A model generated the notes under the pieces. The model worked only from the letters and a program-made list of their open reading frames with translations, was not told the DNA's origin and searched no databases. Below, piece by piece: positions 2,748-41,441 of a DNA stretch of 41,939 bases. Both the position numbers and the translations under genes were made by a program. Source of the stretch: a virus; the IMG/VR virus record IMGVR_UViG_3300025410_000037, positions 1 through 41,939 of that record; one strand, given 5' to 3'. Numbering within the stretch: the first letter of the stretch is position 1; each line of letters begins with the position of its first letter.

Positions 2748-3638
2748 CTACGCCTTAAAGGTTGGGTAGAGTGCTTCTAGTCTTGCAGCTTCTGCTGAAA
2801 TACGATTAGCGCGAAGTTGCTGCAATCCACGGGCAGATTGTAGAACTGCTCCTGGTGGAGTTTCACTAGCACGACGAGTATCTCCCTGACCTTCTGTAAA
2901 GTTACGCTTGATCTCTCGACCTTCCATCAAACGAATTGCAGCACCTAGTGGTGGCAGATCATAAGCAGATGGAAGCAAGCCAGTAGAAGATACATTAGCA
3001 AGGTAAGTGCTAGGCATAATAAAGTTAGAACGATAAACAACGCGAACATTGTAACCAGGATAAGCAGGTTCAAACATCTGCAATGAAAGTCCTGATGGGA
3101 ACTGGGAAGCATTGGCATTACGATTCAAGCGCCATCCTGTTGTGTGGATGCGTGGGTTATCAAGTTGCGGTCCAGGAGTTAGGTACTTGACTTCATAAAT
3201 AGACTGAAGGCTGTCGCCAATAGAACCAAGATCATAACCGTTAAGTGTTGCGTTGTAGGTTAGATCAACAGTCTGAATTCCAAATAAACCATTAGCAGGA
3301 GATGAAAGATCCCCAAGGTCATTTGCTAGTTGCTTCCAAATTTCATCACCAGTAAAGCGTGGAGATACACGAACAAGAGTTCCTGCTGGAACGCTAAGAT
3401 CAGTAGAAGAATCTTCACCTGCTTGAACTGTTGCTTGCTGACCGCTTACTGACCATACATAAAAAGTATTTGTGCCAATAGAAAGGCGAGCGCCTGGGCG
3501 AATACCAGCCATGTCGTACTGAAAAACAAGAAGACCACTACCTGCTGTGTAATCCTGAGCAAGTTTATTTCTGTTCTCAGCATAACCACTCATTAGGTAT
3601 GAGCGAGTTTGAGCGATCCAGTCTTGTCCTGTTGTCAT
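2748..3638 (-). CDS. Head-tail adaptor / tail tubular protein A-like
   Basis: 296 aa. The N-terminal helical part is followed by a beta domain with GARLSIGTNTFYVWSVSGQQATVQ, in the style of a small OB/Ig insertion. A helical segment with NGLFGIQTVDLTYN comes next, then a region ending in an alanine/arginine-rich helix (RISAEAARLEALYP). A protein of the same length and layout lies at 40551-41441. Position between the small head proteins and the nozzle points to the adaptor ring that joins portal and tail. It starts 4 nt inside the end of the upstream gene and stops 2 nt before the nozzle start, so it is translationally coupled. Confidence 0.55.
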   Translation of the reverse strand: MTTGQDWIAQTRSYLMSGYAENRNKLAQDYTAGSGLLVFQYDMAGIRPGARLSIGTNTFYVWSVSGQQATVQAGEDSSTDLSVPAGTLVRVSPRFTGDEIWKQLANDLGDLSSPANGLFGIQTVDLTYNATLNGYDLGSIGDSLQSIYEVKYLTPGPQLDNPRIHTTGWRLNRNANASQFPSGLSLQMFEPAYPGYNVRVVYRSNFIMPSTYLANVSSTGLLPSAYDLPPLGAAIRLMEGREIKRNFTEGQGDTRRASETPPGAVLQSARGLQQLRANRISAEAARLEALYPTFKA

Positions 3639-5696: not shown

Positions 5697-6203
5697 CTAA
5701 ATCTTGAACATTTCGCCTGGTTGTTCATGCGAGATAGTGATGTTGTTTTCACGAAGAATCTTCATAATCTCAGAAGGATCCGCAGCGTTACGAATAGCAT
5801 CTAGTGCTGTAGGAGAAACAACTCCTGTAGAACCTGCTGCAGCCTGTGAAACGCGATCCAACGCATCAAGATCATTCTTGACCTCAGAAGTCTGAGATGT
5901 TGCGATCAAACCGTATTCAGTTGCTGCTGCCTTAATTGCTTCTACAGAAATCTCTCCGTCGTATGCCTTGGCAAACAACTTTCCTGTTGGAGACTCAACA
6001 TCTACGCCTGACTTAATTAGAGCTAGTTCGCGCTTTGCGGCTTCTGCCTCGCGTTGGGCATCTTCTGCCTGGCGCTTTGCAGCCTTGCCTTCCTTCGCTT
6101 CCTGCTCTAACTTTCGTACAAACTGACGAGAATCCCTAGCGGGTTCGTTGGTTTCTTCTGGTGAGTTATCTAGTTCTTGATCTTCAAAATCATATTCGCT
6201 CAT
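5697..6203 (-). CDS. Scaffolding protein
   Basis: The start chosen is ATG 6201-6203 (MSEYDFEDQELDN); in-frame ATGs lie 4 and 6 codons further upstream. The product is about 168 aa and acidic at the N-terminus. It then has a highly charged coiled coil (RKLEQEAKEGKAAKRQAEDAQ, REAEAAKREL) and a helical C-terminus ending EQPGEMFKI. Composition and position directly before the capsid gene are those of a head scaffold. The 219-bp gap upstream (6204-6422) has no convincing gene on either strand but holds inverted repeats such as CAAGTC/GACTTG. It may contain a late promoter and leader. Confidence 0.72.
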   Translation of the reverse strand: MSEYDFEDQELDNSPEETNEPARDSRQFVRKLEQEAKEGKAAKRQAEDAQREAEAAKRELALIKSGVDVESPTGKLFAKAYDGEISVEAIKAAATEYGLIATSQTSEVKNDLDALDRVSQAAAGSTGVVSPTALDAIRNAADPSEIMKILRENNITISHEQPGEMFKI

Positions 6204-6422
6204 TGCATTTTCCATTTCCGTGTCGCGCACCTACTAGGAATAGTGGTACGGCGGGGCTGATTAAAGGGGCTGGCTCGGAAGCCAAAGACCGACACCACGA
6301 AGCCATTCGCGGGGCGACCTTCATCAAGTCTCAACAGGTCTCAGGCAAACGACTTGGAGATTGCCAACAATTACTCGGACCTTCTAGACGAAAGCGTACA
6401 GAATGTCTAAGCACTAAGCAAC

Positions 6423-12700: not shown

Positions 12701-14300
12701 TAGAAGCAAATGGAGCATTAACAGATATTCCTGTTTTTGCTTCTAAGAGCGATTGAGCGCCATGCCATGCAGCCATTTTGTTAAGATCATGAAAAATGCT
12801 TGCATCAACTGCTGATTGTGGGATACCTGCTTCTGCTGCCTTAGCAACTGTGGCTTTATAACTTTCGCCAGTTCCGCGTTCCCAGTTAGCAAGGACTTGA
12901 TTTTGATTAAGTCCATCAACCAACTTTTGACGAGCGTTCTCTACTTTTGATCCAATCACCGCAGAAGGAGCTGCAGAAATATCGTAAGTTGGGGCATGAA
13001 GTCCTACTTGCAAAAGGTTAAGAGCATTTCCTTCAATACCGGCAATTGGCTTTAAGTTTTCAAGAGCCAAAGCCTGACCGCCATTTGGATCACCAAGGAA
13101 GTTTTCGGCATTACCAATAAGTCCAAGTTTTAATCCTGCTGTTCCTGTTGCTGCGCCAATTTTTCCAATAGCACCAACAATGGGCAAACGATATGGCGTT
13201 GCAAGAAGTGCGCGGTTTGCTTTCCATCCATCAGCAAGACCTGTAGCAACCTTGTTAACGCTGTTCATAAAGTTAAGGGTTGGAATATTTTGCAAAGACT
13301 TTGTAAATGCGAAACGACGCATACCATCTTCCGTCTCAGGAAGAATAGAATTCATTACCCACTTGCCAACTTTGCCTTGCTGGAAAGCAGAGTCAGAGCC
13401 AAGGTCTGTAAAGAATGAACCTGCAGTTGTTTTTGCTCCTGCTGCTTTACCTGCTGCAGTTGCACCCTTAATTGCAAGAATTCCTTCTTCGCCAAGTTTT
13501 CCAATAGTTGATGCGGTAAGAGCTGTGCTTGCAACATTTACCAAATCTTGCATACCCAATGGGGTTTTCAAATACTGATCTAAATTCTGAGTTTTTTGAT
13601 TCTCAATAATTCGACCAGCAGAATCAAATGCGTGTGGAATCTGTGCCGCTAGTTGAGTTTGTGGTTTTACACCTTCTAAAGAACTAACTGCATTTTCTTC
13701 TTTAAGAAGTAATTTACCAGGAACTGCCAAGGCTTTTAAGGCATCTCCTAAAGCAGATTTGCCCATGCTAACAACAAGCGGAATTGCTTTGTTGAGAAAC
13801 GTCGGTCCAAATATGTCGCTAAATAATTTACCAGCGCCAAATGTTCCTGCTGCTGGCTTGTTTTGCGTATCAAGGTGCATTTGATATGACTGGTTATTCC
13901 AGTCTGCAGTCCATACTCCATTTGGCTTAAGGTTTTTTCCATAACCTGCAGCAATCATCTGATTCTGAATATCAGTAATAGTTTCGTTTGGAATTGATGG
14001 AACACCAGTATTTTTAAAATGGTCATTCATCTGTTGAGCAATTGTTGGTGGTTGCTTAACAGTAGGTTCGCCAAAGAAATGTCCTACGCCTTGCCAAATA
14101 TCAGTAAGACCGTTTTTTACAGTTTGCAAAATGCTATGCCCACCAGGGGTATTGCCAGTTTGCTGACCTACGGCTACCTGAACATTTGGATCTACATTGC
14201 CACTACCCGTTGCATGGGCAGTATCAATAAAGTTTGCTAAAGACTGAGCATTAGGATCTGCCTTTTGCTGAGTATTAACATTGGGCGTAATGTTTGGCAT
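9765..14300 (-). CDS. Giant internal virion / ejection protein candidate (1511 aa)
   Basis: 1511 aa, the largest gene in the window. The first 200 residues are Asn/Gln/Thr-rich with a hydrophobic patch, and residues about 350-420 contain Gly/Ala-rich segments (LPIVGAIGKIGAATGTAGLK). The rest is predominantly alpha-helical. The last third has NAFFFPFSFEKTVMRQLGG and a long helical tail (DVQKAAPAYLPFYDKLVAYN). This is the size class of podoviral proteins ejected with the DNA (as T7 gp16). I see no lysozyme or transglycosylase catalytic motif, so a peptidoglycan-cutting role is not supported. Polymerase is excluded by the lack of any motif. Confidence 0.5.
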   Translation of the reverse strand: MPNITPNVNTQQKADPNAQSLANFIDTAHATGSGNVDPNVQVAVGQQTGNTPGGHSILQTVKNGLTDIWQGVGHFFGEPTVKQPPTIAQQMNDHFKNTGVPSIPNETITDIQNQMIAAGYGKNLKPNGVWTADWNNQSYQMHLDTQNKPAAGTFGAGKLFSDIFGPTFLNKAIPLVVSMGKSALGDALKALAVPGKLLLKEENAVSSLEGVKPQTQLAAQIPHAFDSAGRIIENQKTQNLDQYLKTPLGMQDLVNVASTALTASTIGKLGEEGILAIKGATAAGKAAGAKTTAGSFFTDLGSDSAFQQGKVGKWVMNSILPETEDGMRRFAFTKSLQNIPTLNFMNSVNKVATGLADGWKANRALLATPYRLPIVGAIGKIGAATGTAGLKLGLIGNAENFLGDPNGGQALALENLKPIAGIEGNALNLLQVGLHAPTYDISAAPSAVIGSKVENARQKLVDGLNQNQVLANWERGTGESYKATVAKAAEAGIPQSAVDASIFHDLNKMAAWHGAQSLLEAKTGISVNAPFASKLTQQAMTDDQRLNFMRETSHAILNDPNLLSQARESYLLKPGLYAKDLNRSILNMKSDKTYIYAKDFMNKLQRDEIMRNEIAPHLDGNVVTPQTKLAKQLRAQGVKQGITDAEQAALNDQTLIPSFGHMNTERQTANDAQAKAMQFYNQLEKAKPGYVAPKALDDNSDLETLFAGGKNTTKVSDLPKNFNYNSATKAEIQLRNQVLQYLGEELNRNVKDLLYVPTKNLIDLVVERSHLLAGDAHLAADASPAFRASVAKLEALGGKLVYGTDIGHAFANTPIPLNVLGRSQNLMSRFADRLGLDFQQVEPSVAAQHSYSQMLNNIQDHLSENPDAYPAWATASRMTNFLQNVIKPDMNLFISGQLAVATSRTSKFIRPLRGGMWEDEIKKLMASDPKMTREDAKAAIKNSLTKDVGPQYWTRKQVVDALTNKGGDNQLITDKFGREVEAVGISKKAANDFYYAMQKGLRDAPTYVNGQSPLTKMLGSTFGLGNIPLGVNGAHILDITGNIQKQLLSFRYQGSYRFAYLRAVKSALKGVTEDIPFTLNAADALKALGPKEEARAYALRDQYLGANPVQKEVTDYVTKEFDQNDIYNVYNPRAIEARNIYYLHNAALADAGGNVSQIDKASVLKKFDNIYSYGNRTAAEKTVNAFFFPFSFEKTVMRQLGGHILDNPGARLMTAAAIAAYDSSDGKKIKQWMETNLPLFKEVEKFNPFFHGVGIGQFGGINRLPYDVLKQLFVAMVSPQPITTKDSAQAIAALIPAYRDLSNILIGNDPNGKKPTQLGGELWSTIKEGAWEIGNALHRGSQADWASQDHLNYTAQQNAGWNLRSQLMTKVAAVLEANRRGGNYAWPSDIPRVGGQKVSTATINDLVNHVYPKWDSAQILIAVANQKAAISKQREDVQKAAPAYLPFYDKLVAYNDQLQSLISKDSIDSTTLASAMDAFRKGAVELSLQDKSFAAFYKKYYQSKYGPLEGM

Positions 14301-14815
14301 TAGTGTGGCATCTGATTTTCTGCTTGAAGGGCAAGATAATTACGAATGTAATTCACTTGTGGAGAAACATTATCTCCAAGTGAATTTAACAATGTTAATG
14401 CCGAAGATGCTGGATTGGTTTGAATTGTTTGTGGCATCGCTTCCGGACCAGCACCAGGGCCTGTTGGAAGTCCTGTTGTGATAGGCAATCCATGAGTTGT
14501 TGGCTGAGCCAATGGAGTTACTGGTTGCATACCTGCCATTGGAGATGCGCCACCTTGTTGTGCTGGAGCAGTAGGAGTTGCAGGAGCAGGTTGTATTGGA
14601 CTTGATGTTGCTCCCATAGGAACTGCTTTTTGTGCTGCTAATTGTGCGCCAGCAGATCCATAGGCTTGCCCAGGAACTGCTGTTGCAGCAAGTTTATTTG
14701 CATTAAGGTTTTGACCTTGTGGACCTACAACATTTGCACCGTTCATGTCTGTACGGTTTGCGTATGCTTTTCCTGTTACGCCCTGACGAGCGCCACCGCG
14801 ACCTCTAGAACCCAT
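14300..14815 (-). CDS. Pro/Gln/Ala-rich hydrophilic virion-region protein
   Basis: 171 aa, strongly biased to Ala, Pro, Gln, Gly and Thr (GATSSPIQPAPATPTAPAQQ), with a basic N-terminus (MGSRGRGGARQGVTGKAYAN). A short helical C-terminus is the only ordered-looking part (ALTLLNSLGDNV, SYIRNYLALQAENQ-like). It starts at the last base of the portal stop and stops on the first base of the 1511-aa gene, so all three are coupled. Composition suggests a disordered linker or assembly factor. No family is recognised. Confidence 0.5.
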   Translation of the reverse strand: MGSRGRGGARQGVTGKAYANRTDMNGANVVGPQGQNLNANKLAATAVPGQAYGSAGAQLAAQKAVPMGATSSPIQPAPATPTAPAQQGGASPMAGMQPVTPLAQPTTHGLPITTGLPTGPGAGPEAMPQTIQTNPASSALTLLNSLGDNVSPQVNYIRNYLALQAENQMPH

Positions 14816-16590
14816 TATGCACCAGCCTTAGCGCCACCACCGAGTGATGCAAGGAACGCACCAACATCTTGTGGTTGCTGTGGTTGTGCCGGTGGTTGCT
14901 CTGCACCCATTCCTGGTTGTGCAAGTCCTGGCATTGTTTCAGGTGCGCCTGTTGGTGCAGGAGTTGCTTGACGCTTCTGAGCTTGTTCGTGAATCTTTGT
15001 TACCGCGTCAGCCAACGACGCTTTGTCCGACGCGACCAAAGCAGCAATAGCAGCCACATCACTAGGGGGAATAGCACCTTGAGAAGCCTGAGTTTGAATT
15101 GATTGGAGAAGCGCTTGCTCAAGTCCTTCACTAATAACACGGTCTTTCTCTTGCTCGGGATCGGAAATAAATGGATCAATTTCTTGTGCTGTTTGCTTTG
15201 ACATGATTCCAATACCAATGCGCTGACCAAGACCTACAACAAGTGCGTTTGCATCTGCACCTGTGTGTGAATAGGTAACAACATTGTTATCATCTTCAAA
15301 ATCTTTGTTTGGTACATAGTCAACATGACCCTTTGCACCACGCGATGAAATGTAGAAAGACTTGCGCTCATTACCAAAATAAGTCTTGGCAATTGCAATA
15401 GCGCGCTTGTTCTCTTCCTGCAAGGAAGCAGCAAAGATTTCCTGTGCTTCCTGAATTGGGAAATCAACTACGGCTGAAAGGATTGCATCTCCGCGCTTTC
15501 CAGTACGGACATTGGATGTTGATTCTCCACCGAACTCAGCAGGAGTACCAGAACCGATACGCTGCGCTCGCTCAATGCGATCCATCATTCCGTTGGTAGC
15601 AAATCCAGGATTAGCAGCCATTTCACGAATGTCTCCACCTTGAACCACATTTACCTGACCGGTACGACCATCGTAAGGTCCTGCTACGAAACGAGCAGTC
15701 TCACCTGGGCGAGATACAAGATAAGTGTCAGGGAAGATACCGCGCTCTACAGCAATGACTTCAAGAGCCATTAACTTAGACTGCAACTGGTACATACCAA
15801 CAAGTGAGTCGAACTGACCCATTGGGCGATCAAGAGTGATACGGCCTGGAACTACAGCAAGGCAAAGCCCTGTTTTATTTTGGATGCGCTCGAGTTCTAC
15901 ATGAGGAACACCGCGAACTGGACCATCCCATTGAGAAAGTTTTGTTTGCGATGAAGCCATAAGAACTGTTACTTCAGCATCTGTGTATTCAGCAATCTGT
16001 ACAAGATCAGTTGGCTTTGCTTTATCCCCACCAACGAGCTGTACTGCTGCATCAGGATAGTGTTGCTTGAGCCATGCGCGTGAACGAGTATATGTAAAAA
16101 TACAATCGTTAGGAGTAATCTCATCAGGATCTTCACCGATAGATGGATAAGTGCTTAGGGGATCACGAATATCCCAACGAGCAGCGCCCCACTTTGTATC
16201 AGGGCGAAGAATGACTGGTGAGGAAGCATAGCCAATAAGCCAGCGAGCTCGACGGCGCATCTTCAACTGCATCTTATTTGCTTCCCACCAGCCCATTGTT
16301 GCGCGCTTACGGGTGCGAGCGCGCTTCTCAGAAGCATTGTTTCCTTCTTCAAGGGCAGGATAATAAACACTAGGCATTGTTGATGAGATACGCATTGCAG
16401 TCTGATCTAAACCAGTAGTAATAAGATTTGCGACAGCAGACTTCTCGCGTCGATCCATTTCAGGTAACGGAATAACGAGATCACCATTGTAGGCATCTCG
16501 TAGTTGACGCATTTGGTCAATCATTGGACCTTGGCGCTGTTGTCTTTCAGACAAAATATAAGCAATCTCAGCAAGTGTTGGACCGACCAT
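14815..16590 (-). CDS. Portal protein
   Basis: 591 aa. The order is an N-terminal helical segment (LSERQQRQGPMIDQMRQLRDAYNG), a conserved-looking NLITTGLDQTAMRISSTMPSV region, and a stem/wing core with DPLSTYPSIGEDPDE. A crown-type helical region follows (MYQLQSKLMALEVIAVERGIFPD) with RIGSGTPAEFGGESTSNVRTGKRGD. The C-terminal tail (from about 520) is Pro/Gln/Ala-rich and disordered. Size and position two steps after the large terminase are those of a podoviral portal, the dodecameric ring through which DNA is packed. It overlaps the upstream lysine-rich gene by one base (TAATG). Confidence 0.75.
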   Translation of the reverse strand: MVGPTLAEIAYILSERQQRQGPMIDQMRQLRDAYNGDLVIPLPEMDRREKSAVANLITTGLDQTAMRISSTMPSVYYPALEEGNNASEKRARTRKRATMGWWEANKMQLKMRRRARWLIGYASSPVILRPDTKWGAARWDIRDPLSTYPSIGEDPDEITPNDCIFTYTRSRAWLKQHYPDAAVQLVGGDKAKPTDLVQIAEYTDAEVTVLMASSQTKLSQWDGPVRGVPHVELERIQNKTGLCLAVVPGRITLDRPMGQFDSLVGMYQLQSKLMALEVIAVERGIFPDTYLVSRPGETARFVAGPYDGRTGQVNVVQGGDIREMAANPGFATNGMMDRIERAQRIGSGTPAEFGGESTSNVRTGKRGDAILSAVVDFPIQEAQEIFAASLQEENKRAIAIAKTYFGNERKSFYISSRGAKGHVDYVPNKDFEDDNNVVTYSHTGADANALVVGLGQRIGIGIMSKQTAQEIDPFISDPEQEKDRVISEGLEQALLQSIQTQASQGAIPPSDVAAIAALVASDKASLADAVTKIHEQAQKRQATPAPTGAPETMPGLAQPGMGAEQPPAQPQQPQDVGAFLASLGGGAKAGA

Positions 16591-25675: not shown

Positions 25676-26095
25676 TTACGGTCTAGGGTACACATTACGG
25701 GACCATTGTTCAAGTAATCTTTTCTTCACTTCATCAGGGATGGGAACTGCTTGCTCCTTGGCTCTCTGAGCCTCTAGATCGAGTTCTAAAGCCTTTTTGC
25801 GTTCAGCCTCATCTCTTAACCTAGCCTTTTCTAATTCAGCCTTCCTAAGCTCGTCAGGGCTGAGTTTTCGGGGTGGCAAGGGATCATCCGACCAGCGCTC
25901 TTCATCGAGCCAACGAGCAGGGGAAGGGGTAAAGGTTGGATCTCGATTGGGGTCAGCCGCATAAGCCTGGACTGCATCAAGAATAACCTTTGGGTTTACT
26001 TTGGTGATTGCAACTTTCCAAGATTCCCTGGCGCTGACAACGCTTACCTTGCGAGGATAGGCGTTCCAAAATAAACCAAAATCATCAATGACCAT
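25676..26095 (-). CDS. Phage replication protein (DnaT/gpO C-terminal-like)
   Basis: 139 aa. The pattern FWNAYPRKVSVVSARESWKV ... ILDAVQAYAADPNRD ... PSPARWLDEERWSDD is the C-terminal domain of many phage replication initiation or helicase-loading proteins. The rest is a long charged helix (RKAELEKARLRDEAERKKAL). Only this domain is present, about half the usual length or less, so it may act as a separate loader. No helicase or primase gene is in the window. It overlaps the end of the WhiB-like gene. Confidence 0.6.
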   Translation of the reverse strand: MVIDDFGLFWNAYPRKVSVVSARESWKVAITKVNPKVILDAVQAYAADPNRDPTFTPSPARWLDEERWSDDPLPPRKLSPDELRKAELEKARLRDEAERKKALELDLEAQRAKEQAVPIPDEVKKRLLEQWSRNVYPRP

Positions 26096-26423
26096 TCATC
26101 AAACTCCTTACCTGTACTTCATCAATGCCAAACCGAGCGATGGATTTTAATGTCCGTACTCGATTCTCAAAGAACTTATTGCTCATAAACGATTGACGCT
26201 CAATACCGGTTAGCCCGCCCCAAACGCCAAACTCTTCATTCTCAAATGCCCACTTCAAACACTCTGCCCAAATGGGACAACTAAAACAGATGGCACGAAC
26301 CGCTTCAGTTGTTTCAGTCTTTTGCGGGGATGCCCGCATTTCCTCAACATCAAAGAAAGTATTTACGGGCATCCCAACGCAATTACCTTTGTCCCAATCT
26401 ATGCGCGCCTCAAAGAACTGCAT
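26085..26423 (-). CDS. whiB: WhiB-like Fe-S regulator
   Basis: 112 aa. C15, C46, C49 and C55 (NCVGMP, ICFSCPIWAEC) give the C-x30-C-x2-C-x5-C set that binds a [4Fe-4S] cluster in WhiB proteins. FGVWGGLTGIERQ follows, the G-V/I-W-G-G turn that contacts sigma factor. The C-terminal tail is longer and less basic than in host WhiB proteins. WhiB genes occur essentially only in actinobacteria and their phages, so this strongly suggests the host. It may control phage or host transcription or exclude other phages (as described for TM4 WhiB). It overlaps both neighbours. Confidence 0.88.
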   Translation of the reverse strand: MQFFEARIDWDKGNCVGMPVNTFFDVEEMRASPQKTETTEAVRAICFSCPIWAECLKWAFENEEFGVWGGLTGIERQSFMSNKFFENRVRTLKSIARFGIDEVQVRSLMNGH

Positions 26424-27094: not shown

Positions 27095-27381
27095 ATGGTA
27101 ACCATGCGAGCGTGTGATGAAACGCGTCGGGTCTTTTCAAACCCAACGCGCTCCACCGCACCGCCGTGTGACCAAGTGCGGATCTTTGCTCCAACCGCGT
27201 TATTGGAGTTCGGATTGCTCTTGTCGGGCAACCCGATTGCATCAATCAAATCTTCTGAAGTGAATCTTTCGCCGCTTGCTAAATCTTTAAACCACACATC
27301 AGCATCAAAACTCCAAAGTGATTTGGTGATAAGAGCTAATCTTGATCCTTCATTGGCAAGCACTTCTCCTACGATGCTCAT
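27079..27381 (-). CDS. Winged-helix-like protein between annealase and nuclease
   Basis: 100 aa: SLWSFDADVWFKDLASGERF, then TSEDLIDAIGLPDKSNPNSN and NAVGAKIRTWSHGGAVERVG, ending FEKTRRVSSHARMVTIWEKK. Helices followed by a wing-like basic C-terminus suggest a DNA-binding winged helix. The pattern recurs in actinophage genomes next to recT-type genes. It overlaps both neighbours by a few bases. Function unknown. Confidence 0.58.
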   Translation of the reverse strand: MSIVGEVLANEGSRLALITKSLWSFDADVWFKDLASGERFTSEDLIDAIGLPDKSNPNSNNAVGAKIRTWSHGGAVERVGFEKTRRVSSHARMVTIWEKK

Positions 27382-28169
27382 GCTTCAGTGTTTTCTTTGA
27401 GTTCTGCAACTCGGGCAGAGATAACCTGCTTCAATGTTTTACCATCAACAGGTATATCTAAGTACTGGGCTTCATCTGCCCATAGTGCGCGAAGTCCATC
27501 AATGTCATGTGACGGAACAGAATTGATGAGAACAGTTGCGCGCTTGATTTCAAGTTCGGTTGGCTCTACAACTTCTGCTTCTGCAATCTGCTTTCCTGGT
27601 GCATCAGCTTTAATTGTGACTGGCTTTTCTTCTTTGTCAGCCTGAGACATTTCATCGTTGGTATAAATACCTGAGAGATCATTAGGAAATGCTTTACGAA
27701 GAGCGAGCGCTTCAGCGCACTTTGAAAGCATAAGGTCCGGCATCTTCTTCCAAATTGGAGAACCGGCATTGTATGAATCCCACTTAGCAACTGCATAAGT
27801 TGGGTGCGGAGTATCTTTGTAATAGACACCGATACGAGCAGCAATTGGTGGAGTTGGCTCTAGCCAAACATCCTTCCAAACACCATCTTGCCCACACCAC
27901 TCTGCGGGGGTCTGACCACCGTAGTTTCCTGAGCGTTGAGCGACGATGCGAAGTCCATCAATTGATGACTGGATGGTGAACTTTCCACCACGGGAGATCA
28001 TGTAGATCTGACGGGCAAATGGGTCTAACCCTGTGCGTTGGCAATAGTGGTGAAATACCTTCATATCGCCTTCAGATGCCCCTGTAAGCCCTAATTGCTT
28101 GAGTGCAGCAACTTGGGTAGGAGTCCAGTTATCCTGCTCTGAGGTGAGAGCTAGGCTTTTTTCAGTCAT
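27378..28169 (-). CDS. Bet/RecT-family single-strand annealing protein
   Basis: Start at ATG 28167-28169, with GAAAGG 7 nt upstream; an in-frame TTG two codons earlier is less likely. 263 aa. GLDPFARQIYMISRGGKFTI, then IDGLRIVAQRSGNYGGQ and KWDSYNAGSPIWKKMPDLML, is the lambda Bet superfamily signature. SKCAEALALRKAFPNDLSGI follows. The C-terminal third is acidic and variable, as usual. It pairs complementary ssDNA made by the Cas4-like nuclease, with SSB from the same operon. It is the first gene after a strong promoter. Confidence 0.9.
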   Translation of the reverse strand: MTEKSLALTSEQDNWTPTQVAALKQLGLTGASEGDMKVFHHYCQRTGLDPFARQIYMISRGGKFTIQSSIDGLRIVAQRSGNYGGQTPAEWCGQDGVWKDVWLEPTPPIAARIGVYYKDTPHPTYAVAKWDSYNAGSPIWKKMPDLMLSKCAEALALRKAFPNDLSGIYTNDEMSQADKEEKPVTIKADAPGKQIAEAEVVEPTELEIKRATVLINSVPSHDIDGLRALWADEAQYLDIPVDGKTLKQVISARVAELKENTEA

Positions 28170-28213
28170 AATCAAACCTTTCGTTTGGGGCTTCTAATTG
28201 CCCGTGTAGCCGT

Positions 28214-28291: not shown

Positions 28292-28495
28292 ATGGCATTT
28301 TCATCGATTGAGATCAGACTGGGCGGCCTATGGGTGTCAGTCCAAAGCGAATTGACCTACCCCGATGGGATAGATGACCTAACTTCTAGGGCGCTCTTCA
28401 TGTTTAAGGAAAGCGTAAATACAGCCAAGGCAAACAACATTGATATAACCGTGATGAGTTTAATGACTGGATACCCCGAGGATACTGACGAGTGA
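28292..28495 (+). CDS. Hypothetical protein (67 aa) upstream of the HslV-like gene
   Basis: 67 aa, acidic with beta then helix: MAFSSIEIRLGGLWVSVQSE, LTYPDGIDDLTSRALFMFKE. The ribosome site GAGAGG precedes its ATG. It is divergent from the recombination operon and overlaps the next gene start by 4 nt (GTGA). A partner or modifier of the peptidase-like protein is possible from coupling only. Not recognised. Confidence 0.55.
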   Translation: MAFSSIEIRLGGLWVSVQSELTYPDGIDDLTSRALFMFKESVNTAKANNIDITVMSLMTGYPEDTDE

Positions 28496-29022
28496 CAACG
28501 ATTATTGGAATTCAGTACGAAGAATCTTGTCTTATCGTTGCTGATTCTAGGGTAACCGATGATTCAGGAAAGATCTTTAGCCATCCAAACATGACCAAGA
28601 TCAATGAGCGCGGTGCGTTCTTGATTGCCGGTGCTGGTGAGATTCTTCCTTGCGATGTAGTTCAGCACTCTTGGAACCCGCCACGGGTGACAGCCAAAGA
28701 TAAGCAGAACCTTTATCATTTCATGGTAGTAAAAGTAATTCCATCAATACGCAAATGCTTGAAAGAGAATGGTTACAATTTTGATGACAACGGGGATGAC
28801 CGATTCAGCTTCTTGGTCGCTATATGCGGTCAACTATTTGAACTCGATGACAACCTTGGAATTACACAAAACAGTACAGGCTTTTATGGAATTGGATCCG
28901 GAGCGCCTTATGCTCTCGGAGCATTAACGGCTGGCGCTAAGCCAATAGAAGCGATGGATATTGCAACTGATCTAACGGCGTTTACTGCCCCGCCGTATCA
29001 GTTTGCTGAGCAGTCTGCTTAA
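28492..29022 (+). CDS. Proteasome beta/HslV-like Ntn-hydrolase
   Basis: 176 aa, GTG start. After Met the sequence is TTIIGIQYEESCLIVADSRV. T1 is the would-be catalytic nucleophile and D17 falls exactly where proteasome and HslV have their essential Asp. NMTKI gives a Lys at 35, close to K33. FLIAGAGE and YGIGSGAPYALGALTAGAKP match the HslV AGGTAD and IGSGGPYA regions. The length matches HslV (about 175). It would act in the cytosol as a self-activated peptidase, probably a ring. No HslU-type ATPase is nearby. The 3' end overlaps the convergent methyltransferase gene by 41 bp. Fold is confident; activity is inferred. Confidence 0.78.
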   Translation: MTTIIGIQYEESCLIVADSRVTDDSGKIFSHPNMTKINERGAFLIAGAGEILPCDVVQHSWNPPRVTAKDKQNLYHFMVVKVIPSIRKCLKENGYNFDDNGDDRFSFLVAICGQLFELDDNLGITQNSTGFYGIGSGAPYALGALTAGAKPIEAMDIATDLTAFTAPPYQFAEQSA

Positions 29023-29416
29023 CCAACCGATCAACTATCCATGAAACAACAGGAACTGCAACAGCATTTCCCATCTGCTTGTAACGATGAGTATCTGCTT
29101 GATCTTCAGTCCAACCATCAGGGAATCCTTGTAAGCGTTCGCACTCTGTTGGGGTTAGTCTGCGAACTGTTGCATCTTTAGAAATCATTGGCATATTGTT
29201 ACCACCTGTTCCCATTCGTGCTTGTAAAGTGTTAATGACATTACCTTGGAACCGAATGTCATCTACTCGATTGCCATAAAAGATCAACACCGTGGCGCGT
29301 GAATCTCCATTATCAAATGCGTTCAAAGTAGGAACTACCCCCCCCGCTGCCCATGTCTCGTTGTCATCTACAGTTTGTGCGCGCTTAGCTTTGACGAACC
29401 ACAAGATCGGTGGCAT
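28982..29416 (-). CDS. C5-cytosine methyltransferase, C-terminal part (frameshifted)
   Basis: 144 aa frame that continues the methyltransferase begun at 30188 but lies one base out of phase. It holds the rest of the target-recognition region (FDNGDSRATVLIFYGNRVDD, TLQARMGTGGNNMPMI). It also holds motifs IX and X (VRRLTPTECERLQGFPDGWT, HRYKQMGNAVAVPVVSWIVD) that complete the catalytic fold. The apparent ATG at 29414-29416 has no ribosome site and lies inside the upstream frame. The enzyme is therefore split rather than made of two designed subunits. Confidence 0.75.
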   Translation of the reverse strand: MPPILWFVKAKRAQTVDDNETWAAGGVVPTLNAFDNGDSRATVLIFYGNRVDDIRFQGNVINTLQARMGTGGNNMPMISKDATVRRLTPTECERLQGFPDGWTEDQADTHRYKQMGNAVAVPVVSWIVDRLVKQTAQQTDTAGQ

Positions 29417-30188
29417 CTTTGTAATCCCTCGCCTTCAATGCGGAAGCAAGTGAATCATCAGAGTAATCACCAAATCCCCTTTGGCGAAAAGTCATAGTGT
29501 CATGCGCCCTACGAGCGCTAAGAGTTGGGCTTATTGGTTCTGCGGGGAAGTCGTAAAGCTCAAAGTTTCCAGCGCCGATTGAAGCATTACTGGAAGAGTC
29601 TTTCCCCTTCTGTTTGCTCTCCGCAAGATACCCTGTGCGGCCTTCGATGAGAGCGAGTATTTCTGCAGGTGTTTGCCAGTCGTCTCCAAGACATCCGACA
29701 ATGAAGACTCGACGACGGCGTTGGGGTACTCCGAAGTATTGAGCATCAAGCACTCGCCACGCAACGCTATACCCGAGTTCATCCAGCGTTCCGACAACGG
29801 TTCCCATGTCTCGCCCTTTGTTACTTGAAAGTAAGCCAGGGACATTTTCGAGGATGAAGTACTTCGCTTTGGTTTCTTCGAGGATTCTTGTGACTTCAAA
29901 AAAGAGTCCTGATCTATCGCCAGCCAGTCCAGCGCGCTTGCCAGCCACGGAGAGATCTTGGCAGGGAAATCCACCGACAATAATTCCATTTGACTCAAAT
30001 CCGAGTTTGAATAACTGCTCACCTGTTACCTCTTTCACATCTTCTAAAATTGCTGAGTTGGGAAATTGTTTGGCAAGAACCTTTCGTGCGTTCTTATCAA
30101 TTTCAACAGAAGCAACAACAGGTACACCGTTGCGCTCTAGGGCTAAATCAAATCCACCAACACCGGCAAAGAGACTAACAGCTTTCAT
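29385..30188 (-). CDS. C5-cytosine DNA methyltransferase, N-terminal part (frameshifted)
   Basis: 267 aa with motif I LFAGVGGFDLAL, motif IV GGFPCQDLS (catalytic C76), ENV at about 114-116, motif VI/VIII VPQRRRRVFIVG and the first part of the recognition domain. It stops at DATDLVVRQS. In the +1 frame the sequence reads on as VKAKRAQTVDDNETW, as intact phage enzymes do. One inserted base near 29388-29416 explains the split. It would modify cytosine to guard phage DNA against host restriction. Real decay, an assembly error or frameshifting remain open. It overlaps the HTH microprotein by ATGA. Confidence 0.85.
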   Translation of the reverse strand: MKAVSLFAGVGGFDLALERNGVPVVASVEIDKNARKVLAKQFPNSAILEDVKEVTGEQLFKLGFESNGIIVGGFPCQDLSVAGKRAGLAGDRSGLFFEVTRILEETKAKYFILENVPGLLSSNKGRDMGTVVGTLDELGYSVAWRVLDAQYFGVPQRRRRVFIVGCLGDDWQTPAEILALIEGRTGYLAESKQKGKDSSSNASIGAGNFELYDFPAEPISPTLSARRAHDTMTFRQRGFGDYSDDSLASALKARDYKDATDLVVRQS

Positions 30189-30342: not shown

Positions 30343-30408
30343 CTAGTATCTACCGTGGATGAATCCAACCCCAATCCCTAAAATAAAGCAACCGATCATG
30401 GTTAGCAT
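30343..30408 (-). CDS. 21-aa hydrophobic peptide
   Basis: MLTMIGCFILGIGVGFIHGR then Y: one hydrophobic segment with a single cysteine. The ATG overlaps the stop of the phosphoesterase gene (TAATG), so it is translated by coupling. Short membrane peptides of this type are common in phages. It could be spurious. Confidence 0.4.
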   Translation of the reverse strand: MLTMIGCFILGIGVGFIHGRY

Positions 30409-31490
30409 TAGTCGAGCCACACTTGGTATTGAGCTGTAACGCGACCCTTGATGGGATCTACGAAGTGAAGGCGTTGGCTAGGCATACCTGATGCAGCCAT
30501 CGAGTCACGGGCGTATCTATTATCGGACTCAGTAGAGCCAGTCCAATAAAGATTGAAGTTCTTTTGAATAGGCTCTTGTGCATGGCGATGGTAGTGACCA
30601 AGATATATGTCATGGAAATCATAATCGTGAGCGCCAGCCTTCCAACGGTTAGCACCAGCGATCCATGCAGCAGGAGAAGCAAAGCCCGAGCGACCAAGTT
30701 CATCACCGTGCATCAACAATGCGCGGTAATTGCCAACAGCAACTTCTTGTATATCTTCAGGGCAATCTTCCCAAATAAGGCGCTTCTCACCGGCAAGGAT
30801 CTGCCGAGACATTTCATAGACCATGCGATCCACATTGTCGCTCTTAGGAACTTCAGCTCTCTTGCCACCGATGCGCCCGTGGTTTCCCCACTCAGCAACA
30901 ACAGTTACCTTCTCAAAGTTAGCAAGCATCACGCGAACAAAGTCCACGCAAAGGCGAGATACCTGGGTAAATTGACCAAAGAGCGAAGCATCGATCTGCC
31001 ACAACTGAGCAGGATAGTTAAACAAACCTTCAACCATGTCCCCACCAAACATCACTACGCACTCGCGTACTGGATGATGCGCTCGCTGTAGTTCAGTTAG
31101 GTGAACGATCTTGTCTGCAAACTGAAGAACTCTCTTACGCATAATCTCTGAGTTGTAAGAAGTAGTTACCTTTGCACCCTGCCAGTCGGTTGAGTGAACA
31201 AGTGCAACTTCAGGAGAGACCTTGCGCTTATCTGCTTTAGGTGATGGAACTGCTGGAACTTTACCGAGAGTAAGCATCGCTTCATACGCACCACGGTGAG
31301 TTGCTACTACGAGTTCATCGTTGCGGATCTTTGCTTTTGATAGTTGCTTCTGCGCGTTGTTAAGCGCCTTACGAAGTTCTACGATTTCCGGATTTGATTC
31401 TTTTTCCAACTGCTCTAAATCATCCTCTAGCGCCAAGGCATTGACCCCTTCTATGACGAGACACAACACCTTCGCTGAGGTTGTATCCAT
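30408..31490 (-). CDS. Metallophosphoesterase (calcineurin-like)
   Basis: 360 aa from ATG 31490. Metal-binding motifs occur in order: HSTDWQGAKV, FGGDMVEGLF, WGNHGRIGG, LMHGDELG and LGHYHRHAQ, the usual D-x-Q/H, GD-x-(V), GNH, H, GHxH set. The N-terminal 90 residues are a coiled coil (EQLEKESNPEIVELRKALNN). This arrangement is used by phage DNA-processing phosphoesterases of the SbcD/Mre11 type. The upstream gene overlaps by 71 bp, so a start within the coiled coil (TTG after GAAGGGG, near 31440) is an alternative. Substrate not determined. Confidence 0.78.
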   Translation of the reverse strand: MDTTSAKVLCLVIEGVNALALEDDLEQLEKESNPEIVELRKALNNAQKQLSKAKIRNDELVVATHRGAYEAMLTLGKVPAVPSPKADKRKVSPEVALVHSTDWQGAKVTTSYNSEIMRKRVLQFADKIVHLTELQRAHHPVRECVVMFGGDMVEGLFNYPAQLWQIDASLFGQFTQVSRLCVDFVRVMLANFEKVTVVAEWGNHGRIGGKRAEVPKSDNVDRMVYEMSRQILAGEKRLIWEDCPEDIQEVAVGNYRALLMHGDELGRSGFASPAAWIAGANRWKAGAHDYDFHDIYLGHYHRHAQEPIQKNFNLYWTGSTESDNRYARDSMAASGMPSQRLHFVDPIKGRVTAQYQVWLD

Positions 31491-35585: not shown

Positions 35586-36383
35586 TTACTCTATTAGATT
35601 AACTAAAGAGCGTGTTCTTCCTTGAGATAATTGTGTGTACACCTGGGTAGTTGCTACAGATGAGTGACGCATAAGATCTCGAACTGCCAGTAAATCACCA
35701 TTAGATTTCTCAAGCATTGTGGTTGCAAAGTAATGACGAAGGCTGTGGAAATGCTTGGCATTAGGTCCAAGGATTCGACGCATTTCATCAGCAGCTTTTT
35801 TAGAGAACCGATTTGGATCGCATTTCCATAATGGTCCGAGCGTGTTATAACTCTTGATGACTTCGGCAACTTTTGCAGCAACCGGCACTACAAGATCTGT
35901 CTTACCTTTACCAATAACCCGTAATGAATAGCCACCGTTATCTTCAATCAGATCAGCGCCTTCGATCTTTGCTACCTCATGGGCGCGAAGCCCGACCATA
36001 CCGCCAAGAATGAACCAGTCTTTGTAGGGTTGGGTTGCTTCAGCAATCAATTTATCAAACTCGCCCTTAGTAATGGGCTTAGGGACACCCCTGCCTGACT
36101 TCACATTGGGTAAGTCGGCTGCAGGGTTATTGCCATTGACAAGATCCATCTTGTTCAGGTGCTTGTAAATCGACCTAAGCCTAGACACATAGTTTGCCTT
36201 GGTGCTTTGCTTAGTAGCTGAGAGAACTATCTTCTCAAGATCCTGGACTGTGGCTATGGCTGGATGAACGCCAATGCGCCGGATAATCTGCCAGTCTGTG
36301 CGGATCACATAGGGTGAAAAGCCCGAAGTGTCATACCGGTTTTTGAGCTGTCGGTATATCTCCTCGAGGGGTACTAGATCCAT
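35586..36383 (-). CDS. int: Tyrosine integrase
   Basis: 265 aa. Catalytic residues fall at R133 (GLRAHEV), K159 (VIGKGKT), H213 and R216 (HFHSLRHYF), H240 (LMRHSS) and Y249 (TQVYTQL). The N-terminal core-binding domain is present (about residues 5-95), but no obvious arm-binding domain, making this a short phage integrase. It catalyses integration and excision at an att site. It is downstream of two small genes and a structured non-coding stretch that could hold the attachment site. Confidence 0.88.
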   Translation of the reverse strand: MDLVPLEEIYRQLKNRYDTSGFSPYVIRTDWQIIRRIGVHPAIATVQDLEKIVLSATKQSTKANYVSRLRSIYKHLNKMDLVNGNNPAADLPNVKSGRGVPKPITKGEFDKLIAEATQPYKDWFILGGMVGLRAHEVAKIEGADLIEDNGGYSLRVIGKGKTDLVVPVAAKVAEVIKSYNTLGPLWKCDPNRFSKKAADEMRRILGPNAKHFHSLRHYFATTMLEKSNGDLLAVRDLMRHSSVATTQVYTQLSQGRTRSLVNLIE

Positions 36384-40550: not shown

Positions 40551-41441
40551 TTAGCGACTGTAGTGGGTGCGTGGTGGGTATTGCTCTGCTTGACGTGCCA
40601 TTTCGACCGCAAGGCGTTGCTGGTACATCTGATAGAAATAACGGCTCATATTGGTTGCAGACCCAACTGGGTTGCTCTGATCCATTGATCCTGCTTCGGC
40701 AGAGGATGCTGGTACGCGGCCCATATCGACATATGCAGCTGAGCGGTATGCCGCTCCAAGAATGATTACTTCTCGGGCTGAGTCTGGAAGGCCAGTAGTT
40801 GTAAAATCATCATTGTCATAAACAAGCTGTGTAGGCTTTTTGGTGTAAACAACCTGTACGGTGCGACCCGGGATAATTCCATCGGAGATGGAGATGGTCT
40901 TTCCGGTGTTCCACACAACAGGGTTAGCAGTACGGTCAATGCGGTAGTGACGCACTGGTAGCCATTCCAAAGATGGTCCAATGGTCTGCCATGAAACTGC
41001 TATCGCATCAATTGCTTCCGATGGAAGCTGGTATGTTGTACGCGCAGCAATGAATGGGAACGTGGTGTAGTACACGCCAAAGAGGCTTGGATAAATAGCG
41101 TCAATAGCCTCGTTAATATCTTTGCGGATCATTGCCCGTGGGAATGATGGGGCAACGGTAACGCGTACTCCAGCGCTATGTGGCACCGGTGTTGTATCTC
41201 TAAAACCGCGGCCATATGGCGGGATGGTTGCGGTGTTTGATGTACGGTCAAATGAATCGACCCAGATCAACTCTTCGTCAATTTCTACAATACCGCGTGT
41301 AAGGACTGTGCCATCAGCAACGGTAAAGCTCAGATCCGTCGGTCCCATTGGGGCAAGAAGGAATGTAGCCTGATCCTGACGTGAGGTATAACCTGTGAGC
41401 GCTAGAGCCGTCTCATCAATAAGTTCTGAAAAAAGTGTCAC
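40551..41441 (-). CDS. Second adaptor-like protein (296 aa)
   Basis: 296 aa, the same length and layout as 2748-3638: an N-terminal helix region, a beta insert (GIVEIDEELIWVDSFDRTSN), then FPRAMIRKDINEAIDAIYPS with LFGV. A region SREVIILGAAYRSAAYVDMG-like and a C-terminal Arg/Ala helix (YQQRLAVEMARQAEQYP) follow. The two proteins look like distant homologues. In a podovirus only one head-tail adaptor is normal, so this is either a second tail module or a specialised collar. Family likeness by layout; role inferred. Confidence 0.55.
   Translation of the reverse strand: MTLFSELIDETALALTGYTSRQDQATFLLAPMGPTDLSFTVADGTVLTRGIVEIDEELIWVDSFDRTSNTATIPPYGRGFRDTTPVPHSAGVRVTVAPSFPRAMIRKDINEAIDAIYPSLFGVYYTTFPFIAARTTYQLPSEAIDAIAVSWQTIGPSLEWLPVRHYRIDRTANPVVWNTGKTISISDGIIPGRTVQVVYTKKPTQLVYDNDDFTTTGLPDSAREVIILGAAYRSAAYVDMGRVPASSAEAGSMDQSNPVGSATNMSRYFYQMYQQRLAVEMARQAEQYPPRTHYSR

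Follow-up and report, generated by a model that had tools for sequence, protein, structure and literature searches.

The window, that is, the whole stretch of 41,939 nucleotides of viral DNA analysed here, carries the gene of an HslV/BPH-like N-terminal-threonine (Ntn) hydrolase (28492..29022, plus strand; GTG start, TAA stop, 176 codons), alleles of which have been exchanged repeatedly between two phage lineages, each uptake occurring at the recipient lineage's own site. Lineage A is that of the window, and lineage B is a sister lineage that includes the cultured Planktophila phages; the portal proteins of A and B are 26% identical. The hydrolase is best explained as an ATPase-independent, portable accessory protease of the HslV/BPH type that acts on host or generic substrates and is not a fixed factor of virion assembly; with due reserve, we hold this reading to be probable. 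Its computed support consists of the fold, the invariant residues, the selection acting on the gene, the absence of AAA+ domains from the record, the gene contexts and the exchange between lineages.

Family and fold

Among the PHROGs families, the protein matched phrog_1040, "peptidase HslV family" (E=2.6e-24, residues 1-171), as did all 34 aligned relatives. Pfam PF00227 was missed narrowly by the window protein (20.4 bits against a cut-off of 22.4) and matched by 23 of the 34 relatives at E<=0.01; this HMM search had been proposed in an initial annotation of the sequence. Profile searches of the PDB with 21 relatives retrieved HslV (1m4y, 1.5e-15) and, over the full length, BPH (5ovu, 4.3e-15). 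An AlphaFold2 model built with 34 relatives (pLDDT 93.3, pTM 0.88) displays the alpha-beta-beta-alpha arrangement of Ntn hydrolases, with four helices (51-59, 74-92, 138-146 and 151-161) and no fifth, C-terminal helix. When this model was compared with the PDB using Foldseek, the top match was BPH (5ovs, E=2e-10), accompanied by HslV (3ty6, E=2.4e-9) and proteasome beta subunits; there were 972 matches at E<=0.001, the best 50 of which were all BPH, HslV, proteasome or Anbu, and a search of BFVD returned many phage proteins of the hydrolase's type.

By the phrog_1040, PDB profile and Foldseek matches, membership in the proteasome-beta/HslV superfamily, as claimed in the initial annotation, is confirmed far beyond chance; the claim also survived the fold comparison, in which a structure unlike Ntn hydrolases might have emerged and BPH and HslV came out best. 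The narrower family definitions do not apply: the protein scored 14.4 bits against the cut-off of 157.75 for the NCBIfam HslV equivalog and 16.8 bits against 191.9 for that of the bacterial 20S proteasome beta subunit. Two scans of genome contigs for a bacterial or archaeal source yielded one distant match, on a gammaproteobacterial metagenome contig.

Catalytic residues and selection

The catalytic Thr immediately follows the start codon, leaving no propeptide, and the protein comprises 175 residues once Met is removed. Its mature form contains T1, D17, K35 and the motif YGIGSGAPYALGA, the GSG corresponding to precursor residues 135-137. T1 and D17 occupy the catalytic positions when aligned to HslV and BPH, and K35 aligns with K33 of HslV and K36 of BPH in the profile alignment; the two catalytic residues, the Lys near K33 and the HslV-core glycine motif had all been pointed out in the initial annotation and are borne out here. 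To judge from the alignment and the fold match, T1, D17 and K35 would lie close together in space. None of the 104 relatives deviates at T1, D17, K35 or either glycine of GSG, and 101 keep the middle Ser; a diverse set of 21 relatives extends down to 21% identity. A further conserved motif behind the oxyanion loop, GExxPCDxxQHxW, is specific to the hydrolase's clade. Close pairs of hydrolase genes have dN/dS values of 0.02-0.09, indicating strong purifying selection. Because the T/D/K residues and Gly-x-Gly are invariant and dN/dS is low, the hydrolase has the appearance of an enzyme under constraint that is apparently active.

Host and cultured relatives

WhiB genes mark actinobacterial phages, and on the basis of such a gene (26085-26423; PF02467) and its cultured relatives the window phage is placed among the phages of freshwater Actinobacteria. 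The nearest cultured relatives that carry the hydrolase are the Planktophila phages E7 and F5 (OX376640, OX376641) on 'Ca. Planktophila', which belongs to the acI Actinobacteria (PMC10202952). Their hydrolase is 42-43% identical to that of the window, a WhiB gene is likewise present, and the GC content is ~45% in both (PMC10202952 for E7/F5); in E7 and F5 the portal gene is immediately followed by the hydrolase gene, which in the window has its place beside recT. Distant relatives occur in Arthrobacter and Microbacterium phages, including the Arthrobacter phages Hum25 and Pitbull (41-43 kb). Since cultured phages thus carry the family, the function of the hydrolase is testable.

Genomic neighbourhood in the window

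The hydrolase gene belongs to a separate plus-strand unit that diverges from the recombination genes, as described in the initial annotation: the gene of the RecT recombinase (27378..28175; PF03837, 5.9e-28), which forms the left border of the insertion site in the window's lineage, lies on the minus strand. Equally accurate was the description of a coupled gene for a 67-aa protein at the 5' side (28292..28495, plus strand), which shares the four bases GTGA with the hydrolase start. At its 3' end, the hydrolase gene overlaps by 41 bases with a minus-strand ORF encoding the C-terminal half of a DNA cytosine-5 methyltransferase (28982..29416; PF00145), an overlap absent from that annotation. The other half of this split gene (29385-30188, minus strand; PF00145) overlaps the first. 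A frameshift was considered for the split and dropped, relatives having the same two ORFs; as G006 and G011 show the identical split in the same frame relation, a sequencing error is an unlikely cause. In relatives, the site is bounded on the right by c24, a conserved gene of 360 aa (30408..31490, minus strand), which has no Pfam match and by eye probably encodes a metallophosphoesterase. The homologue of the portal gene lies elsewhere (14815..16590, minus strand); the gene that follows it, at 14300-14815, overlaps it, and no hydrolase occupies the slot. A scaffold-like gene (5697-6230) is likewise located away from the hydrolase.

A search with the sequence of the 67-aa protein brought up ten loci, in all of which the hydrolase starts exactly 200 bases past the start of the 67-aa gene, and the latter was detected only alongside the hydrolase. 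Since G005 and G011 lack it at the recT site, the 67-aa gene is a frequent, translationally coupled, but not an obligatory companion. No relatives of the protein were found among 50,697 phage records, and its model, a low-confidence beta-beta-alpha-beta arrangement (pLDDT 69.9), did not suffice for a fold comparison. Comparisons with hhalign gave no homology among the 67-aa gene, the 80-aa gene behind the hydrolase in lineage B and the 75-89-aa genes of the slots lacking the hydrolase.

The lack of an ATPase partner, also noted in the initial annotation, was reproduced: neither an AAA nor an AAA_2 domain, and with them no gene for HslU, the ATPase partner of HslV, was found in the 41.9-kb record, which is possibly incomplete, the control genomes being positive in 14 of 14 cases.

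Two further features of the record may be mentioned. A phrog_7578 protein is present in two copies at its two ends (2748-3638 and 40551-41441, minus strand). A match to a tyrosine integrase (35586-36383, minus strand; phrog_1, E=9.2e-33) is common, among 17 genomes, only to G001 and G009, and the phage may therefore be temperate.

Gene position in relatives

Of 104 hydrolase loci, 57 have the gene immediately after the portal gene, 18 have it after an endolysin gene, and about a dozen have it in a recT island like that of the window; among the remaining locations is one adjoining an HSP20-like gene. The location beside the recombination genes given in the initial annotation is one among several, most relatives carrying the gene behind the portal or the endolysin gene. 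When the portal of lineage B was used as query, i.e. independently of the hydrolase, 67 of 79 readable loci had the hydrolase as the following gene, within the order TerL, small gene, portal, Ntn hydrolase, small genes and a protein of ~1500-1900 aa; the identity of the portal was anchored by an annotated Streptomyces phage portal (43% identity). For lineage A, the next gene directly abuts the portal in all readable loci, leaving the hydrolase slot empty, and the hydrolase, where carried, lies between recT and c24. A position beside portal, scaffold and capsid genes, by which a prohead protease may be recognized, was thus found in lineage B and not in the window or its close relatives. The hydrolase is present in 12 of 17 near-complete genomes, those without it occurring in both lineages, and no replacement common to all of the latter was seen among the gene families found in at least three genomes.

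Individual loci show additional features. In L013 (5567-6124) and L014 (5587-6120; both plus strand), the latter from a 96-kb contig, the hydrolase is immediately followed by an ORF that is HSP20-like by eye, and the two genes are a possible chaperone-peptidase pair. The gene is found in two inverted copies in L061 (4548 bases), probably an assembly artefact. Phages of lineage B (e.g. L219, 11560-12393, minus strand) contain a 277-aa ORF that begins MCLLVVCEPNG and by eye resembles a Cys-type Ntn hydrolase (class II glutamine amidotransferase).

Exchange between lineages

Sequences of lineages A and B are mixed in the hydrolase tree, with seven label changes (6-7 in the bootstrap), and the same mixing is seen in a larger tree. 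Holding lineage A as one clade costs 143.9 log units and is rejected (AU p=2.4e-8). Supported cross-lineage pairs are G005 (A) with G029 (B) and G009 (A) with G033 (B); some of the exchanged pairs are joined by long branches. Three A-type sequences (L033, L042 and L048) were assigned to their lineage by the surroundings on the recT side and not by a portal on their own contig. Trees of 17 genomes require one A/B change for the portal, the terminase (TerL) and the capsid-containing cluster, 1-3 for other shared genes and four for the hydrolase. Because the hydrolase tree mixes A and B while the portal and terminase trees separate them, the alleles have been exchanged repeatedly. Related phages carry the gene very often, and it has moved in both directions between the two lineages, which would suit a useful tool for cutting proteins better than a permanent component of the virion.

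A metallopeptidase-like gene at the recT/c24 site

Two near-identical records of lineage A that lack the hydrolase, G012 and G013, carry in the interval between recT and c24 an ORF of 110 aa that contains the motif HEITH and is oriented opposite to its neighbours. This HExxH metallopeptidase-like ORF (L213, 1528-1860; L215, 4631-4963; both minus strand) reached 27.2 versus 27 bits with the Pfam entry DUF6782, a putative metallopeptidase, the matches to M78 and SprT remaining below threshold. Its relatives are found in ~36 other phage loci of the same broad phage group. The hydrolase was present in none of eight long records (29-41 kb) carrying the metallopeptidase-like ORF, in a search that included positive controls, and this ORF was present in none of 18 other records, hydrolase-bearing or empty. 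The apparent replacement of the hydrolase at the recT/c24 site points to proteolysis as the property that the two genes would have in common. It represents one event in one phage pair; elsewhere, the mutual exclusivity may reflect descent only, because the portal tree needs just two changes for the metallopeptidase label.

Possible functions

As an accessory protease, the hydrolase could operate in the following manner: Host methionine aminopeptidase would remove Met and expose Thr1, which, together with Asp17 and Lys35, would attack peptide bonds. To judge from the fold similarity, the subunits most likely assemble into a ring resembling those of HslV and BPH, which may work on peptides or unfolded proteins with no dedicated ATPase. 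The hydrolase would then serve freshwater actinobacterial phages as a portable accessory protease, presumably in trans on host or generic substrates. Against a context-free role stands the preference for the portal slot in lineage B, which it leaves unexplained. The initial annotation's ideas of altered host protein turnover, of processing of the phage's own proteins and of a structural ring are to be taken as conjectures.

A different proposal is that the hydrolase would attack a specific target in the host in the service of counter-defence or host takeover and that, in the window's lineage, the 67-aa protein would act as its adaptor or regulator. Such a role is in line with the strong selection on the hydrolase, with its repeated exchange at fixed sites, with the coupling of the 67-aa gene at all ten loci retrieved by the 67-aa query and with the apparent replacement by an M78/SprT-like metallopeptidase candidate; however, a PADLOC search for defence systems gave no match, and the 67-aa gene is missing at the recT site in G005 and G011, so that we regard this function as unlikely.

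Less likely still is a virion protease in head maturation. Many tailed phages keep a prohead protease at the position after the portal, and the hydrolase might replace it, cutting the scaffold, the portal, the capsid or the giant internal virion protein. This would agree with the gene order in lineage B (67 of 79 portal-anchored loci, including E7 and F5) and with a search of 20 genomes for canonical head proteases, in which neither an S78 nor a ClpP-type protease was found. In lineage A, however, the portal slot is empty and the hydrolase lies among recombination genes; near-complete genomes exist that have neither the hydrolase nor a shared replacement family; Streptomyces phage WRightOn, the portal of which is 43% identical, has no such gene annotated behind the portal; the scaffold-like gene of the window is separate from the hydrolase; and alleles have been swapped between lineages with highly diverged portals. 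It is the empty slot, the absences in both lineages, WRightOn and the free exchange that make a context-independent accessory protease fit better than head maturation.

Ntn hydrolases include non-proteases, e.g. acylases. A non-proteolytic reaction of an active Ntn hydrolase, be it as amidase, acylase or protein ligase, is in keeping with connectase, a proteasome homologue that acts as a ligase (PMC8665760), and with the clade-specific GExxPCDxxQHxW motif, but appears improbable given that the compact fold is that of HslV and BPH and that the model has no long insertion like the two-helix insertion of connectase. Just as improbable appears a portable proteasome-fold module with a small coupled partner, exchanged between lineages that infect freshwater Actinobacteria and interchangeable with an unrelated metallopeptidase, which behind the portal does, or did, carry out head maturation as a protease of the threonine-nucleophile class.

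Comparison with known systems

Phage proteasome homologues were described by Fuchs, Alva and Lupas in 2021, who found neither an informative gene context nor an AAA+ partner (PMC8665760), and an Alteromonas phage carries a gene annotated as 'proteasome-like' (PMC7289586). The initial annotation was right to call the protein phage-encoded, and the window protein joins a kind that is already known from that survey and from PHROGs (PMC8665760). What is new here is where the gene lies, that lineages have exchanged it and that a metallopeptidase-like gene has apparently replaced it; no earlier account of these points was found in open-licence papers. The clade of the hydrolase offers an informative context: the portal slot in one lineage, the recT-side site in the other, the exchange and the apparent substitution of one protease for another. 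We know of no phage proteasome homologue with an established function, nor of any experimentally defined role within PHROG 1040, from which no feature separated the window hydrolase or its 34 relatives in our tests.

PPH and AAH resemble the window hydrolase in being compact group I proteins of tailed phages that lack a propeptide, the C-terminal S12/H5 and an AAA+ partner (PMC8665760). PPH comprises ~140 residues and lacks helix H2 (PMC8665760), whereas the window hydrolase has 175 residues and four helices. For AAH, compared here by description only, the 2021 survey reported no Actinobacteria-specific phage, whereas the family of the window hydrolase occurs in actinobacterial phages (PMC8665760). 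With HslV (ClpQ), the hydrolase shares T1/D17/Lys, the GSGxPYA core and nearly the same length, the profile of 21 relatives matching T. maritima HslV at E 1.5e-15; it differs in its NCBIfam score far below the cut-off and in the missing HslU gene in the record. BPH forms a double-ring, ATPase-independent barrel. Its structures (5ovs, 5ovt, 5ovu) provide the best fold match (E 2e-10) and a full-length profile match, whereas BPH is bacterial and ~22% identical to the phage hydrolase, which was modelled as a monomer only. If active without an ATPase, the hydrolase would show viral use of the proteasome fold.
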